A stretch of DNA of 32,759 bases from an uncultured Hyphomonadaceae bacterium (GCA_938011445.1 CALLUH010000236.1:1-32759), one strand, 5' to 3'. Counted from the first letter of the stretch, positions 15,430 through 23,868 are shown. Numbers and translations are program-made. Notes: generated from the letters alone by a model not told the origin.

Positions 15430-16143
15430 ATGAATTGGTCAGCGCGGGCTATGGCGCTTGGCGGTGGGCTTGGGCTGTCGCCTGTGTTTGGTGGCGACGC
15501 GATTGCTGGACCTTGGGGGCAAGGGGCGGGGCGGACTTATGCCGAGATTGCGGTGCTGGGCCAACGGATTGATGGTGTGGGTGCGGTGCGCGGGGAGCTT
15601 TACGCCGAATATGGGGTTTCGGATAAATGGACCGTGATTGGCCAAGCCGAAGGCGTCCGGTTTCCGCAATTGTCTGGTCAGGATCAATATGCGTATCGGG
15701 CAACGGTTCGGCGTCAAATCTGGCAAAAAGGACGGTTTACAGCGGCTTTGGAGGGGGGAGTTGTTGGCGGCGAAGCGATCGGCGGGACGATTGGGGGATG
15801 TGATAGCGTGGGCGGCGAAGCGCGGCTTTCAGTGGGCGCGGCGGGCCGGACGCGGCGGGCGGACCGAAACTGGTTTGCATTTGCTGATGCGATTGTACGC
15901 GAACATGGCAATTGTCGTCGCCAGCGGCTTGAGTTGGGCTATGGGCAGGAAGTGATCCCGAAATGGTGGAGTGTGAACAAGGTCTATGTCGAGACAGGAA
16001 CGGGGGATGCCCGCTCAATCAAGCTGGATTCGAAGATTTCACGCACATTTGGACGTAATGAACTAGGCCTTGGTTACAGGCAGGAGGTTTCTGGCCGATT
16101 TCGCGAGATCGGTGTGGTGGTGAGCCTTGTCCGGCGATTTTAG
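15430..16143 (+). CDS. putative outer-membrane beta-barrel protein
   Basis: Alternating hydrophobic/polar strands rich in G/Y/R and C-terminal ...GVVVSLVRRF ending in F; family not identified. Confidence 0.5.
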   Translation: MNWSARAMALGGGLGLSPVFGGDAIAGPWGQGAGRTYAEIAVLGQRIDGVGAVRGELYAEYGVSDKWTVIGQAEGVRFPQLSGQDQYAYRATVRRQIWQKGRFTAALEGGVVGGEAIGGTIGGCDSVGGEARLSVGAAGRTRRADRNWFAFADAIVREHGNCRRQRLELGYGQEVIPKWWSVNKVYVETGTGDARSIKLDSKISRTFGRNELGLGYRQEVSGRFREIGVVVSLVRRF

Positions 16144-16144
16144 G

Positions 16145-16708
16145 CTATTGGCCCGCTTCCCAGCCGGTTTCGGCCATCAAATAGGCGATAACGGCCGTTC
16201 TGTCGGCTGGTTTGCGCACGCCCTGAAAAGTCATGCGATTGCCGGGGAGAAATTCGCGGGGGTTTTCCAGCCATTGATCAAGCTGCTCCGGTGACCAGAT
16301 AAAGTCGGCATCTTTTACGGCGTTCGAGTAGTTGAAGCCTTCTGCCGAGCCGACCTGGCGGCCAAAGATCTGATATAGATTGGGGCCGATTGTGTTGGGG
16401 CCGTCCTCGGTGACGGTGTGGCATGTCGAGCAAAGTTTGAAAACGCGCTTGCCTGTTGCGTAGCTCGCCTCGCTGTAGGGGGCTGGTAAATCTGCAAATT
16501 CCGGTGACAGCTCAGCTGCCTGCGGCGCAGGCGCGGGTTCGGAGCGGGTTGCCTCTTGAATGGCTGATGCGGTGCGTGAAGACTCTGGGTTTGTCGATTG
16601 TATTTGAACGCTATTTTCTTGATTGCTCGTCCCTGCGGCTGGGCCGCCACAGGCTGCCAGGATGAGGCCAAAAGTGAGGAAGACTGGGCTGAAAGGTCGT
16701 TGCGCCAT
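16145..16708 (-). CDS. lipoprotein c-type cytochrome (class I)
   Basis: Lipobox LILAACGG, heme motif CSTCH, GPNLYQIFGRQVGSAEGFNYS, GNRMTFQGVRKPADRTAVIAYL. Confidence 0.9.
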   Translation of the reverse strand: MAQRPFSPVFLTFGLILAACGGPAAGTSNQENSVQIQSTNPESSRTASAIQEATRSEPAPAPQAAELSPEFADLPAPYSEASYATGKRVFKLCSTCHTVTEDGPNTIGPNLYQIFGRQVGSAEGFNYSNAVKDADFIWSPEQLDQWLENPREFLPGNRMTFQGVRKPADRTAVIAYLMAETGWEAGQ

Positions 16709-17018
16709 GGAAAATACCCTAATTCAAAGCTATTTCCCTATTATAGCGGGGTTTGGAGGGTGTCCGCAAGGCTCTGGCTGTGTGGCATTTGGAGGATAGA
16801 ATGGGTGTTATCAGCCTCTATTGCGCATGCAAAACCGTCCTATCTGCCTGATGCGATGTGTTATGGTATCGCTCTAGTGCTTGGAATTTTAACAAGTAAT
16901 TTTCTGTTGATATTCCTCAAGGTAATCGTTTCGGGCGTTTGGTAAGTGCCGTGGGAGAAGCGGAATATTAACCATAATCAGCTAGACTTCGCCCATAAAT
17001 GCAAGAATGGGTGATGTA

Positions 17019-17429
17019 ATGAAACGGGTAATTATTGGTATGACGGCAATAGTCGCGACCATTTCTAACCCTGCTTTGGCCGAGCCGGCAGATGCGAATC
17101 TGTGGGTTGGTCTGGAGAATGGCAGGGATGGTGTCCTTCTGGACGAAAAAACGGGCGAGGCGTGGCTTACGGGCACATGTCTGAAGCCTATCGCAAAAGC
17201 AACGCAAACCGGCACAGTCTGGCGTTCGCACACGGTGGAGCTTGTCTCCATCGGGCGGACAAAAATTGTGCTCGACCAAACCTTTACGCTGGAGACGCAA
17301 AGTGCGGCCCCGAGCCTGATGGTTGAAAGTGTCGATCGTGGTGGCCTGCAAAGCTTTCCAGCAATTGTCGAGACGGCTTGCCAGTCGTCTGCCAAATGCC
17401 GGGCACTTCTGGATGCGCCGGCCTGCTAG
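17019..17429 (+). CDS. small secreted protein of unknown function
   Basis: Signal peptide MKRVIIGMTAIVATISNPALA; Cys-containing C-terminus; alternative start 17007. Confidence 0.6.
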   Translation: MKRVIIGMTAIVATISNPALAEPADANLWVGLENGRDGVLLDEKTGEAWLTGTCLKPIAKATQTGTVWRSHTVELVSIGRTKIVLDQTFTLETQSAAPSLMVESVDRGGLQSFPAIVETACQSSAKCRALLDAPAC

Positions 17430-17463
17430 GCTTTAGCGGGCCCTAGGCCCTCTACACGCAAAC

Positions 17464-20400
17464 ATGAATTGCTCGACCGCCATACGCGCGGTCGTTTTTG
17501 CGACCGCAATGGGGCTGTGTTCCCCTGTTTTTGCCCAAACTGTTGGGACAGAGGGTGTATCTGCGCGCAGCGTCGAGGCGTCGATTGACGCACCTGTCAG
17601 CATTGAGACCGGCCAGCCGTCTGGCGTCGTTACGGCTGATGAAGATGCCGCCCCTGATGCCCCGCTGCAAATCGGCTTCGAGCATGCGCCCGATCAGGCC
17701 ATGTCGATCGAACATATTGATATTATTGTTGAAAACGAAACTCTATCTGTGCGCTCGCGACGCACGGACACTGACGGTGTCCTCATCGAGGCCAGCCCGA
17801 TCTTCACCCATTTGAAGGGCAAGGTCACGCTTGAGGGCACCGTCCTTTCTAATTTGCGTTTTCAGGATGGTGCGGTGATGTCGCTTGATGTCAGCAATGG
17901 CATTGTGCGGGCAAATGGGACCGAGCTCGGGGCCTTGCCTGATTTTGAACCGCTTGAAGCGGCGACGACGTGGATCAGCCCGAACACAATCGGTATTTTG
18001 ACTGGCACGGTGCCCGAGCAGAGTGAGGCGGGCGACTGGACGTTTACGCTCGACGATCGCCTGCGTCCGCGCTTTGACCTTGATTTGTGGATCAATGGCG
18101 AGCGGACGGTGACGCCCGAGGTAGAACCGCGCACGATCGGGCCGGTTTTGCTGGTGCCGCTGGAGACGGTGGCTGAAGCGCTCGGACATGCGCTGGAGCG
18201 TTCGGACGGCAATGTCATTACGGTGACGCGGATACAGGATGCGGCGCGCATCTCGCTCGATCTGTCTACGGGACTTGTGACGGTGAACAATACGCCGCGT
18301 GGGGTGACGCCGAACATTGCTTATGCCGACCCTGATTTACTGCTATTGCCATTTACGGCTGTCGAGACGCTGACGGGCACGCATATTTTGCTGGAGCCAG
18401 GTACGAGCGATATTGTGGTGACGCTGGACGATAGGCTGGGCGGGGGCGCATTGCCCGGAGAACGCGTTGTCGATGAGGCGGCGGCGACCGGCTGGGTGCC
18501 CGAGCAATTGCAGTTTGCGCTGAGTGATCGCGGGCCAGCGACTTTGCAGCTTGATTCGCGGCTAAGCTCGCTGAACACGCAGCTACGCTATGAGACGGTG
18601 GGCGGGCTGACGCGGCCCGAGGAACTTGCACCGGGCTGGGTGTCGCTGGAGGCCCAATCGCTTAATGGCTGGGTTGGCTCTGTGGGGGATTCAAATTCGC
18701 GGTTCCGCGAACTGAGCGGGGTTGACGAAAACCGCGTGCGCGGTGTCAGCTTCCGGACGCGGCGCGAGAAGACCGGCGATATTATTGCGCTGGCCGCTGG
18801 CGTGCCGCTAAGTGGGTCGCGCGAAGTATCGTCTACGGCGTCGCGGCCGGTGTTTTCAGGCTTTGCGGGTGGGGCGCGATGGATCGCTGCGGAAGGCGAT
18901 CAAGAGTTCGGGATTTCGGCGGCGAGTACGGAAGACGGTGGCGGTAAGCGCGTTGTGATTGGCGGGCAGAAGCATTTTCGTGGCTCGGGCGAAGAGACGG
19001 GGCTACAGCCTTTCTTTGTGGCGGCGGATGCGGGCGTGTTCAATACGGTCACGGGCACGGGTGTTGATTTTCGCGGCCGCGCACAGGGGGGATACAGGTT
19101 TAACCGGCAAGCGGGTGTTCAGGCGAGTTTGAGCTATGATGGCGGACGGTTTAATCAAGGCGGCGGGCTGTCTGGCAGCGCGAGCCTTGAGGGTGCGTTG
19201 AACGGGCCGTCGGCGTCGCGCTTTGTTGGTTCGGTTTCGACCGATTGGCGGGCGGTGAAAGATTGGGGGCCGGTGTCTAATGTAGCCGCCGGTATCCGCA
19301 CAAATTATACTCGAACGGGTGGTGATAATGGGTCGTCTTCAGTGACGGTTTCGAGCGCCTTTAATGGCCGGATTACGCCGCTTGATCTGAATGTGTCCGT
19401 AGACGCATCATATTCGAATACGAAGTCGGGGGATGTCAGAGGCTCGTCACGTTCGATTGGGGTGCGGGCGTTTCGGCGGTTTGACTGGGGCAATGTGCAG
19501 GCGTCCTATTCCAACACTGTGGCAGGCGGAGAAACCACGCAGCGATTGGTGTCGAGTGTTTCCGTTTTGCCATTTCGCAAGAATCTTGGGCAAGGTGCAA
19601 GCGTTGCGGCGGGACCAACAGCGTCTGCTGTGTGGTCGCCGGAGCGGTCATTTGCACGTGTTGGGGCAACGGTTTCGGCCAATAGCGGGCAGCGTTTCGG
19701 GGAGCGCTTTAATGTGCAGGGGCAGTTCTCGGCATTGCAGTCGGTTGATCCTGAAGATTCGCGCACGCAATTCTTTGCGTCGGTGAATGCTGGTTATGCG
19801 CTCACGCGGTTTATCCGGCTTGAGAGCACTTATTTTGACAATTTCTCTGGCGCACGGGACTTTTCAGTCGCGCTGCGCGGGCGGGTGACGTTTAACGAAC
19901 CGCGCAAGCATACAAAGCCAAAAGAGGGCTTGGGCATTTTGCGGGGATCTGTTTATTTTGATCGTAATAGAGACGGGATCCGGCAGCCTGATGAGGAGGG
20001 TGTGCCGGGGGTTCGTATTCAGGTGACAGGTACAAGGCTGGCACTTGGGGTGGACAGGGACGGTTTGTTTACGATCCAGAATATGCGCACTGGGCTTTAT
20101 GGGGTGACAGTGGACCGGCGGACTTTGCCGCTGGGGCTTCTGGTGCCTGATGATGTGTCGGCGCGGGCGACGATCGGGGATGGGCGAGTGACCGAGCTTG
20201 AGATCCCGATTGTGGCAAGCGGGCAAGTGCGCGGGGCGCTGTTTGTTGATGAAAACGGGGACGGCGAGGTCACGCCCGGAGAGCATCGGGTCGAGGGCAT
20301 GTTCGTGTCTTTGTTGCGGGTTGATGAGGACGCGAAAGAGGATGAGGAGCCGGTGTCCGCCATATCGGCCTCATTCGGGCAATATAGTTTCGAAAATCTG

Positions 20401-20574
20401 TCGCCGGGGCGTTATGAGCTGAGTGTGAATTTCAAAGGCGTTATCTATTCGCGGACGGTGGAACTTGGTGAGGATAATCTTTTTGTGGTACGGCCATTTG
20501 ATCTGCCGGCGGAGGAAAGCTATGGCCCCGGCGGGGAAGACGATTATTCTGGCGGGGTGATCGGGGAAGCCTGA
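17464..20574 (+). CDS. usher-like outer-membrane protein with N-terminal stalk-like region and C-terminal SdrD_B-like domains
   Basis: Signal peptide ending VFAQ; duplicated stalk-like units (VPLETVAEALG..., LPFTAVETLTG...); long barrel-like middle; YFDRNRDGIRQPDEEGVPGVRIQV and FVDENGDGEVTPGEHRVEGMFVSL repeats. Confidence 0.7.
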   Translation: MNCSTAIRAVVFATAMGLCSPVFAQTVGTEGVSARSVEASIDAPVSIETGQPSGVVTADEDAAPDAPLQIGFEHAPDQAMSIEHIDIIVENETLSVRSRRTDTDGVLIEASPIFTHLKGKVTLEGTVLSNLRFQDGAVMSLDVSNGIVRANGTELGALPDFEPLEAATTWISPNTIGILTGTVPEQSEAGDWTFTLDDRLRPRFDLDLWINGERTVTPEVEPRTIGPVLLVPLETVAEALGHALERSDGNVITVTRIQDAARISLDLSTGLVTVNNTPRGVTPNIAYADPDLLLLPFTAVETLTGTHILLEPGTSDIVVTLDDRLGGGALPGERVVDEAAATGWVPEQLQFALSDRGPATLQLDSRLSSLNTQLRYETVGGLTRPEELAPGWVSLEAQSLNGWVGSVGDSNSRFRELSGVDENRVRGVSFRTRREKTGDIIALAAGVPLSGSREVSSTASRPVFSGFAGGARWIAAEGDQEFGISAASTEDGGGKRVVIGGQKHFRGSGEETGLQPFFVAADAGVFNTVTGTGVDFRGRAQGGYRFNRQAGVQASLSYDGGRFNQGGGLSGSASLEGALNGPSASRFVGSVSTDWRAVKDWGPVSNVAAGIRTNYTRTGGDNGSSSVTVSSAFNGRITPLDLNVSVDASYSNTKSGDVRGSSRSIGVRAFRRFDWGNVQASYSNTVAGGETTQRLVSSVSVLPFRKNLGQGASVAAGPTASAVWSPERSFARVGATVSANSGQRFGERFNVQGQFSALQSVDPEDSRTQFFASVNAGYALTRFIRLESTYFDNFSGARDFSVALRGRVTFNEPRKHTKPKEGLGILRGSVYFDRNRDGIRQPDEEGVPGVRIQVTGTRLALGVDRDGLFTIQNMRTGLYGVTVDRRTLPLGLLVPDDVSARATIGDGRVTELEIPIVASGQVRGALFVDENGDGEVTPGEHRVEGMFVSLLRVDEDAKEDEEPVSAISASFGQYSFENLSPGRYELSVNFKGVIYSRTVELGEDNLFVVRPFDLPAEESYGPGGEDDYSGGVIGEA

Positions 20575-20596
20575 TTGTTTTGGTGGCAATGGTCCG

Positions 20597-21460
20597 TTAA
20601 TTGCGGAAGAAGTCGAATTCGATCTGGTAACGCAAATCACCAGCGCCAAGAGACAAATCATAGCCTTCAAAGCCGTAGACATAATCAAAGCGAATGGACT
20701 GTTCGGGCAGATCATCGTCGAATTCGCGTCGGATCGCGGTCGGAAATTCGGCGATGAATTGTGCGCTTGACGAGAGCGGGCCAAGGCTGTCGAAATTGCC
20801 AAGCTTGCGGAAACCACCCTGGGTGGCTGCACCGCCAAAGGCCATGCCGTCATCATTGCCTTGGGCGGTGATGCCATAATCGAAGCGGACATTGTTCAGG
20901 CGTGACACCTGATTAAGCGCGTCGGTGCCGCCGGTCAGCGTGGAGCGGGCAGAGATGCGGAAACCTGTTGTGCGCGAGGAGATGTAGAAGCTGCGCTGGG
21001 TTGAGGTATCGAGTACGCGCAGTGTGGTGTTCTGGTTGAGCTGGACCGTGCCAAAGACATCTCCCGCATCGAGAAAACCATTGCTGTTTCCGATGGCTTG
21101 AAGGTCTGGCGTGCCATTGCCGTTTTGATCAAAGCCCAGACGAGCGCCTTGTGTGTCGGTGGCGATGACGTGGAAGCCTTCAGTGCGGGAGCCTGTGAAG
21201 ACGGGATTGACCTCGCCTGTTCCCTGAAATGGATTGCCCGTCCACGGAATAAGTTCACCGCCGGGGGGGACGGTGCCATTATTGGTGAAAATGTGGACGT
21301 CATAGACATCGAAAGAGAAGCCGTCATGGACAATGACGCAGCCCTTTACGCGGCAGAAGAAATCTGAATCCAGAAAAGATGCATGTGCGGGTGCACTAAC
21401 CAGACAGGCCGGGCAAAGCGCCCCCAGTAGCAGGGCCGAGCGGCGTGCGCGGCCAGCTAT
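20597..21460 (-). CDS. secreted protein of unknown function, putative substrate/partner of the chaperone; no canonical start codon
   Basis: Hand translation of the minus frame is open from 21460 to TAA at 20597: IAGRARRSALLLGALCPACLVSAPAHA|SFLDSDFFCRVKGCVIVHDGFSFDVYDVHIFTNNG...YQIEFDFFRN. The ORF track only lists 20597-20908 because no ATG/GTG/TTG lies further upstream in frame. Confidence 0.65.
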   Translation of the reverse strand: MAGRARRSALLLGALCPACLVSAPAHASFLDSDFFCRVKGCVIVHDGFSFDVYDVHIFTNNGTVPPGGELIPWTGNPFQGTGEVNPVFTGSRTEGFHVIATDTQGARLGFDQNGNGTPDLQAIGNSNGFLDAGDVFGTVQLNQNTTLRVLDTSTQRSFYISSRTTGFRISARSTLTGGTDALNQVSRLNNVRFDYGITAQGNDDGMAFGGAATQGGFRKLGNFDSLGPLSSSAQFIAEFPTAIRREFDDDLPEQSIRFDYVYGFEGYDLSLGAGDLRYQIEFDFFRN

Positions 21461-22314
21461 GGATTCAGCTCTGTGCTGTCGGTGCCAGCACCAGGTTCTG
21501 ATGGGCGGACAGATTGGGACACGCGATAAGGCGGCAGAGCCAGTGTTTCGCCATTTGTCTGCGGGGCGAAAATATTGTTCAGGCGCACTTCAATCGAGGC
21601 ATCGTCGGACAGATTGTCGGGCAAGCGTGTGACGTAATCGCGGCGACCTTCATGCAGCACAACGAGATTGGAGACCGGCACGGTTTCGGTTGCACCGCCG
21701 GACGTGATCTCGATTACCCCTTGCAGGCGGGCGTGGGCATTGCCGGAGTTTTCGATGCCGAGATGTAGATTGCGCACGCCTTCATCATTGATGCTGACCT
21801 CGCCGCCCGTAATGGTCGCTTCGCTTTGGGCCGAGCCGGTGGTCAGATAGAACAGGGTGGCAATCTGATACTTCTTCCAGACGCCCGATTGGCCGGTGCG
21901 CTCCTCTGGCAGAACCGTCGAGGCGAGCAAGGCAAAGCGGTAGTCGCCAGACCGGCTCAGCCTTGTTGGCGTTGACATATCGACGATGACCTGTTCGGCT
22001 TCGCCGGGCTTGAGGGTGAGGAAAGCGGGGCTGAAGCGTGCCCATCCGGCAGCCGAAGAGGCCGTTTCGTCTGGCGGGGAGAGCTGGATCTGACCATTAT
22101 CGTCGAGCGACCAGTCGGCAAGGCCGAGCGTGAGCGAAATGGTTTTTTCGGTATGGACGTTTGCGATATTGACAACTTGCCGATTGCGTTCGCCCGGGGC
22201 GACTTCGATTTCGACGGTGGTGGGCTGTAGCCCGATGCCGAACGTCCATGCGGGGAAAGCCGCAAGGCCGAGTGCTGTGGCCAGAACAAATGTGCGAAAC
22301 GACAAGATGCGCAT
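21457..22314 (-). CDS. PapD-like periplasmic (fimbrial-type) chaperone
   Basis: Signal peptide, LQPTTVEIEVAPGERNRQVVNIAN, LTLKPGEAEQVIVDMSTP, SGDYRFALLAST. Confidence 0.82.
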   Translation of the reverse strand: MRILSFRTFVLATALGLAAFPAWTFGIGLQPTTVEIEVAPGERNRQVVNIANVHTEKTISLTLGLADWSLDDNGQIQLSPPDETASSAAGWARFSPAFLTLKPGEAEQVIVDMSTPTRLSRSGDYRFALLASTVLPEERTGQSGVWKKYQIATLFYLTTGSAQSEATITGGEVSINDEGVRNLHLGIENSGNAHARLQGVIEITSGGATETVPVSNLVVLHEGRRDYVTRLPDNLSDDASIEVRLNNIFAPQTNGETLALPPYRVSQSVRPSEPGAGTDSTELNP

Positions 22315-23279: not shown

Positions 23280-23552
23280 ATGAAGTTCTTGATCATCAAC
23301 AGTTTCCGCTCAATGATTTACGTGGCTTATATTGCAATCATTGTATTCGGCGTGCTTGTCGGGGTCCATTCGCGTGGACGGGTTGCGGCGGAAATTCCCG
23401 GTGTGGACGGCTCTTTGGCGGCGGCGCTGGATGTCGTGTTTGGCCTGTTTGCGGGCTGGTTGGCGTCGAGCCTGATTTGCGGGCTGATTGTGACCATTCT
23501 CGATATTCGCGATGATCTGAACGATCGCCTTCCCGAAGAGAAGAAGTCTTAA
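23280..23552 (+). CDS. two-TM mini-protein, copy 1 of tandem pair
   Basis: MKFLIINSFRSMIYVAYIAIIVFG...SLICGLIVTILDIRDDLNDRLPEEKKS; strong SD; paralogous to next gene. Confidence 0.75.
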   Translation: MKFLIINSFRSMIYVAYIAIIVFGVLVGVHSRGRVAAEIPGVDGSLAAALDVVFGLFAGWLASSLICGLIVTILDIRDDLNDRLPEEKKS

Positions 23553-23592
23553 TGGGGGCCGCTAAGGCGCTGGCCGATGAGGAATTAGCACA

Positions 23593-23868
23593 ATGAAATT
23601 TTGGATTATCAACAGTTTCCGGACGGCCGTTTACACTGCGTTCTTTGCGATTATTGCTTATGGCGTGGTGTTTGGCGTGGTCAATGGCGGCAATGTAACA
23701 TCGCAACTGCCCGGCATAGAGGGCGATCTGGCGGTGGCGCTCGATGTGGTGGTCGGCCTTGTTGGCGGCTGGGTGGTTGCAAGCCTTGTCTGCGGGCTGA
23801 TTGTGACGTTTCTTGATATTCGTGACGATATTAATGACCGTTTGCCAGATGCGCGCCGTGATGATTAG
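23593..23868 (+). CDS. two-TM mini-protein, copy 2 of tandem pair
   Basis: MKFWIINSFRTAVYTAFFAIIAYG...SLVCGLIVTFLDIRDDINDRLPDARRDD; about 60% identical to copy 1 by hand count. Confidence 0.75.
   Translation: MKFWIINSFRTAVYTAFFAIIAYGVVFGVVNGGNVTSQLPGIEGDLAVALDVVVGLVGGWVVASLVCGLIVTFLDIRDDINDRLPDARRDD

Follow-up and report, generated by a model that had tools for sequence, protein, structure and literature searches.

The window analysed here, a stretch of 32,759 nucleotides from an uncultured Hyphomonadaceae bacterium (GCA_938011445.1 CALLUH010000236.1:1-32759), a marine alphaproteobacterium, carries a group of genes that probably specify a highly diverged chaperone-usher pathway for the export of large subunits of about 260 amino acids. 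A small secreted protein and an usher-like outer-membrane protein (UL) are encoded on the plus strand and converge on a minus-strand pair, a chaperone-like gene followed by the gene of a secreted partner. That UL, chaperone and subunits work like a chaperone-usher pathway is the best reading of the set. The sequence-only reading that preceded this analysis had described a 1036-residue secreted protein with two C-terminal DxNxDG-type units, a minus-strand chaperone-like gene with a secreted 287-residue partner, and a small secreted protein upstream, and all of these are in place:

17007..17429, plus strand: small secreted protein of 140 amino acids, with an ATG at 17007; the signal peptide MKRVIIGMTAIVATISNPALAE is read from a later ATG in the same frame
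17464..20574, plus strand: UL, 1036 amino acids, an open reading frame starting with ATG; signal peptide, N-terminal domains (residues 83-341), barrel (344-809) and immunoglobulin (Ig)-like domains (823-1015)
18493..19890, plus strand: predicted barrel of UL (residues 344-809), with about 26 strand runs in the AlphaFold model and no plug-sized insertion
19930..20508, plus strand: two C-terminal Ig-like, SdrD_B-like domains of UL (residues 823-1015), from Pfam and the AlphaFold model
20597..21460, minus strand: partner, a secreted protein and likely subunit of 287 codons read from an ATA start; the genome has four members of this family
21457..22314, minus strand: chaperone-like periplasmic protein of 285 amino acids with a signal peptide; two Ig-like domains are predicted from its sequence

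Between the window and the sister species, UL is 88% identical; in other genera of the family its identity is 42-46%, and in the nearer of these genera the chaperone is conserved at 54-59% and the partner at 52-56%. Since they are conserved across species and genera, these are real genes and not chance open reading frames.

Co-occurrence was surveyed in 348 genomes of the order. Full-length UL is present in 23 of them, all of which also encode the chaperone, itself found in 43 genomes (plus one weak match). The subunits, searched for with a profile built from the partner and a paralogue of about 276 amino acids, occur in 20 genomes, all among the 23 with UL, and in none of the other 325; the odds of such nesting would be about 1e-29 if genomes were independent, which they are not. 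At the genus level, subunits and UL occupy the same 7 of 56 genera, and the chaperone and partner genes adjoin in all 20 genomes that have subunits. Chaperone, usher-like gene and subunits are encoded or inherited together, as is the rule for chaperone-usher clusters. The earlier proposal that the three genes form one system is therefore upheld as far as inheritance is concerned, but the adjacency of its two halves is not general. Five genomes of a different family (G102, G198, G216, G221, G261) repeat the convergent layout of the window, and a four-gene locus comprising a second subunit, chaperone, partner and UL (G102, G198, G221, G261 and L046, L047, L048, L054) occurs in several Caulobacterales and in one gammaproteobacterial metagenome-assembled genome (MAG). 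Most UL genomes have the two pairs, small protein with UL and chaperone with partner, at separate loci, for example about 50 kb apart in G059, G122 and G302. Ten genomes of a Henriciella-like genus keep the chaperone, lack the subunits and have UL reduced to a remnant, a short open reading frame with the last SdrD_B domain and no barrel. The three remnants inspected (L008, L010 and L011, in G004, G013 and G025) adjoin the trigger factor gene, which is also the neighbour of UL in relatives. Apparently, UL has decayed in these genomes, which are also without subunits.

The predicted structure of UL is that of an usher in its general plan. The AlphaFold model, made from an alignment, has a mean predicted local distance difference test (pLDDT) of 80.5, rising to about 90 over most of the barrel, and a predicted template modelling (TM) score of 0.60. 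It shows mixed N-terminal domains (residues 83-341), some 26 strand runs (344-809) and two Ig-like domains (823-1015), an order of domains that agrees with that of ushers; the exact strand number is not fixed by the prediction, about 26 runs being compared with a 24-strand usher barrel. When the model was compared with the PDB by Foldseek, the top twelve matches were all FimD/PapC ushers (E 5.7e-20 to 2.6e-10), and the alignment with the best of them spans 946 columns; other outer-membrane barrels such as LptD and TonB receptors trailed at about 1e-7 or weaker. The usher-like barrel anticipated from the sequence is thus borne out by structure prediction.

At the level of sequence, UL had to be traced through its family. 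A scan of genome contigs with the single UL sequence gave no match, and an alignment was needed; the alignment-based scan found 52 loci, from which the UL family (L026-L058) was drawn. The resulting alignment of 33 proteins combines that of the window with relatives found in Caulobacterales and in two MAGs, one gammaproteobacterial and one of Acidobacteriota. In the window's UL, Pfam recognizes SdrD_B in two C-terminal stretches with the DxNxDG units (E 3.6e-14) and, weakly, a copper-amine-oxidase N-terminal domain; SdrD_B is matched by all 33 proteins and Cu_amine_oxidN1 by 32. The Acidobacteriota locus (L051), which has no chaperone or subunit nearby, was left out as support, and a PDB sequence search with UL yielded just SdrD/UafA-type matches to the C-terminal domains or chance ones.

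The window's chaperone has no significant match in Pfam, and a PDB sequence search gave chance matches at best. Its relatives show weak matches to several Ig-like families, PapD_N being reached in one of twelve at E 0.15. A connection is provided by a second usher-like cluster of related Hyphomonadaceae (L024:6143-11581, L025:2765-6402), which encodes a 910-residue usher-like protein, a 297-residue chaperone and three secreted proteins of 186-218 residues. The profile of the window's chaperone matches the L024-type chaperone over both domains (hhalign probability 97, E 5.4e-11, 251 columns), and the latter itself matches PapD_N weakly (E 0.0057). This chain of sequence comparisons suggests a PapD-like two-domain fold. 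In classical chaperones, two basic residues, Arg8 and Lys112 of PapD, anchor the C-terminus of the subunit; this pair was not seen in a by-eye alignment with PapD, which places Thr33 and Thr153 at the corresponding positions. Archaic and alternative chaperones have Arg89 and a kink proline in domain 1, and an arginine and a tyrosine in domain 2 (PMC4654587). An unguided alignment brings a proline, Arg126 and Arg196 of the window's chaperone opposite Pro60, Arg89 and Arg148 of EcpB (located by residue numbering), with a score reached by 1 of 100 shuffles. Arg or Lys at 126 and Arg196 are kept in 19 of 19 chaperones and the proline in most of them, and a valine occupies the position of the EcpB anchor Tyr169. 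This correspondence is to be taken as a pointer, not as proof.

The partner belongs to a multi-copy family with two to five members per genome, four in the window's own genome (on C236, C206, C204 and C111). The members that were read have a signal peptide and, once it is removed, about 260 residues. A hydrophobic N-terminal stretch contains an invariant glycine, and near the C-terminus lies a conserved alternating hydrophobic strand, YDLSMGxGxLxxxVxFxF, like that of chaperone-usher subunits, in which the chaperone binds this strand and a donor strand completes an otherwise incomplete Ig fold. A search of PDB sequences with the subunits gave chance matches at best. This family likely provides the subunits of the pathway, the paralogue of about 276 residues probably being the main one and the partner probably a tip or anchor subunit. 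The sequence-only reading, which saw no pilin and a single large partner, and proposed a non-pilus surface protein, is mistaken or incomplete on this point: with several secreted subunits per genome, the export of one protein is no likelier than a polymeric fibre. The partner's reading frame contains no ATG, GTG or TTG, and its 287 codons require an ATA start at 21460, which overlaps the stop codon of the chaperone gene (ATAG, 21457-21460 on the minus strand). The sister species has the same arrangement, with ATAA, and homologues in other genera start with ATG. The ATA of the window might be a natural AUA start codon.

Several observations weigh against a chaperone-usher pathway. Known ushers have in common a recognizable sequence and a gating plug, the latter being one of their defining features. 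The absence of a classical usher signature, already remarked upon from the sequence, extends to the whole family: none of the 33 UL proteins matches a Pfam usher model (Usher PF00577, PapC_N/PapC_C, TcfC, CooC_C) at E<=1, yet FimD and PapC head the fold search. The control, E. coli EcpC, is recognized by both TcfC and CooC_C. PF00577 finds no match in the window's genome either, the UL profile matches the six E. coli K-12 ushers weakly and over part of the barrel (probability 47%, E 2e-4), and a direct comparison of UL with EcpC detected no similarity. The longest gap between barrel strands in the AlphaFold model is 26 residues (560-585), so that the model contains no plug-sized domain. TM-scores between UL and ushers are low (0.27/0.33 in Foldseek), probably because the relative placement of the domains differs. 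The comparison of the window's chaperone with classical chaperones by hhalign is in register with the N-terminal domain but reaches a probability of 14.5%, without confidence. The partner model is poor (pLDDT 60) and has no significant match in the PDB (best Foldseek E 0.053), too weak to use; of the 50 PDB matches listed for this low-confidence model, 13 are to pilus subunits or tip adhesins, none of them significant, which is suggestive at most. Finally, three genomes (G033, G195, G200) have UL and chaperone but no recognized subunit, and 20 genomes hold the chaperone without full-length UL or subunits.

Other readings of this set of genes have some observations in their favour. The missing plug and usher signature, the poor subunit model, and the SdrD_B-type domains, common in surface adhesins, would be accommodated if UL, rather than a polymerizing usher, were a barrel for anchoring or displaying a protein or layer of the surface. 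The chaperone-like protein and the subunits would then make up a coat that leaves the cell by a different route and is kept in place by UL. We find this improbable, as the fold search gives ushers E values several orders of magnitude better than those of other barrels, and a dedicated chaperone that co-occurs and clusters with the subunits would be needless for a passive anchor. The chaperone could also be a surface Ig-like protein akin to WxL-interacting proteins, and the cassette a cell-surface complex, given the weak Pfam matches of its relatives to fn3_5, WxLIP_PGBD and NPCBM_assoc (best E 7.7e-5, 6.3e-4 and 0.0018, respectively) and a weak NCBIfam match to choice-of-anchor T. WxL systems belong to Gram-positive bacteria, and the chaperone matches one encoded beside another usher-like gene, which makes this explanation very hard to credit.

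The chaperone-usher pathway, which we regard as the probable explanation, can itself be conceived in two forms, both covered by that estimate. In the narrower one, an ordinary archaic or alternative pathway has drifted below detection and is missing just its annotation. The residues Arg/Lys126, proline and Arg196 opposite Arg89, Pro60 and Arg148 of EcpB (PMC4654587) speak for this form, as does the alternative usher EcpC, whose C-terminal domain likewise gives weak CarboxypepD_reg matches. We hold it to be rather unlikely, in view of a UL that matches neither TcfC/CooC_C nor the general Usher model and combines Cu-amine-oxidase-like N-terminal domains with a plugless barrel, of subunits of about 260 residues, and of an EcpB alignment score that one shuffle in a hundred equals. 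The other form, to which we would give somewhat less than an even chance, is a separate, undescribed chaperone-usher lineage with a plugless usher, Cu-amine-oxidase-like N-terminal domains, a conserved small partner protein and large subunits at scattered loci, related to the second Hyphomonadaceae cluster and to clusters of gammaproteobacteria. With neither an usher sequence match nor a plug, UL falls outside the usher family as described so far. The literature searched, whose coverage leaves out most subscription journals, gave no account of these proteins.

What the analysis has shown is which genes are present, that they co-occur, that the fold predicted for UL is usher-like and that a plug-sized domain is absent; a chaperone-usher route that would fit this is the following. 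The subunits, that is, the partner and its three unlinked paralogues in the window's genome, would enter the periplasm by means of their signal peptides, where the two-domain chaperone would capture these proteins of about 260 residues. They would then pass from the chaperone to the N-terminal domains of UL and through its barrel in the outer membrane to the cell surface, where donor-strand exchange would most likely link them end to end in a fibre or capsule. As the subunit model has a pLDDT of 60 and the chaperone fold is reached through a chain of sequence matches, donor-strand assembly is a step that we infer.

The small secreted protein has a homologue directly upstream of UL at 27 of 33 UL loci, and presumably has an accessory role; at a guess, it may be an assembly or gating factor for UL. 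Ahead of it, the region 15430-17429 also encodes a 237-residue secreted protein and a cytochrome c; the Henriciella-like genomes L020, L021 and L022 show an identical order of these genes ahead of the small protein and UL. On the other side of the locus, two tandem membrane proteins of about 90 residues are encoded at 23280-23868 (plus strand); they are also duplicated in the sister species (L018:6209-6792), and a single copy is present in the other genomes searched.

Few bacterial surface organelles have been studied as well as chaperone-usher pili. With a branch that current models miss entirely, the pathway would be known from a wider range of organisms, including Caulobacterales and further environmental bacteria, and it would become possible to test how a plugless usher stays closed and how chaperones recognize subunits nearly twice the usual size. 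The scattered, multi-subunit layout is also a clear case in which the genome neighbourhood alone misses a system.

The window's system is like the FimC/FimD and PapD/PapC systems in the domain order of its usher-like protein, whose best PDB fold matches they are, and in having a periplasmic chaperone and several secreted subunits. Gene clustering is common to both, here in some genomes, whereas genes of the window's type often lie at separate loci. UL differs by its Cu-amine-oxidase-like N-terminal domains and by having neither a Pfam usher match nor a plug-sized insertion, the subunits by their size of about 260 residues, and the chaperone in that anchors of the Arg8/Lys112 type are not seen. 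Points of contact with EcpB/EcpC and CsuC/CsuD are the Arg/Lys and Arg of the chaperone, aligned with Arg89 and Arg148 of EcpB, and the weak CarboxypepD_reg-like character of the EcpC C-terminal domain; UL has no TcfC or CooC_C match, and the chaperone has Val in place of Tyr169. There are likenesses to the L024 cluster as well: the chaperones are homologous (hhalign probability 97), both usher-like proteins have a Cu_amine_oxidN1-like N-terminal domain, and their C-terminal regions are similar (probability 90). The L024-type usher-like protein has no Pfam usher match and no profile match to the E. coli ushers or EcpC; the window's system differs from this cluster in that the L024 protein has a plug-like motif (GWQAELYRDGQLLGF...FGINRFRIELYGP) and goes with small subunits. 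Further clusters (L060:5102-9649, L062:2545-7536, L063:212-4034, L074:3234-8356), most of them on contigs of gammaproteobacterial MAGs (L063 bears the label Halobacteria), have an SdrD_B-type outer-membrane protein beside a chaperone homologue and small secreted proteins, two or three per cluster, whose C-termini are pilin-like. They are much more distant, their chaperone being about 20-22% identical to that of the window, and their subunits are smaller. Together with the system of the window, they perhaps form a wider superfamily of unrecognized systems.

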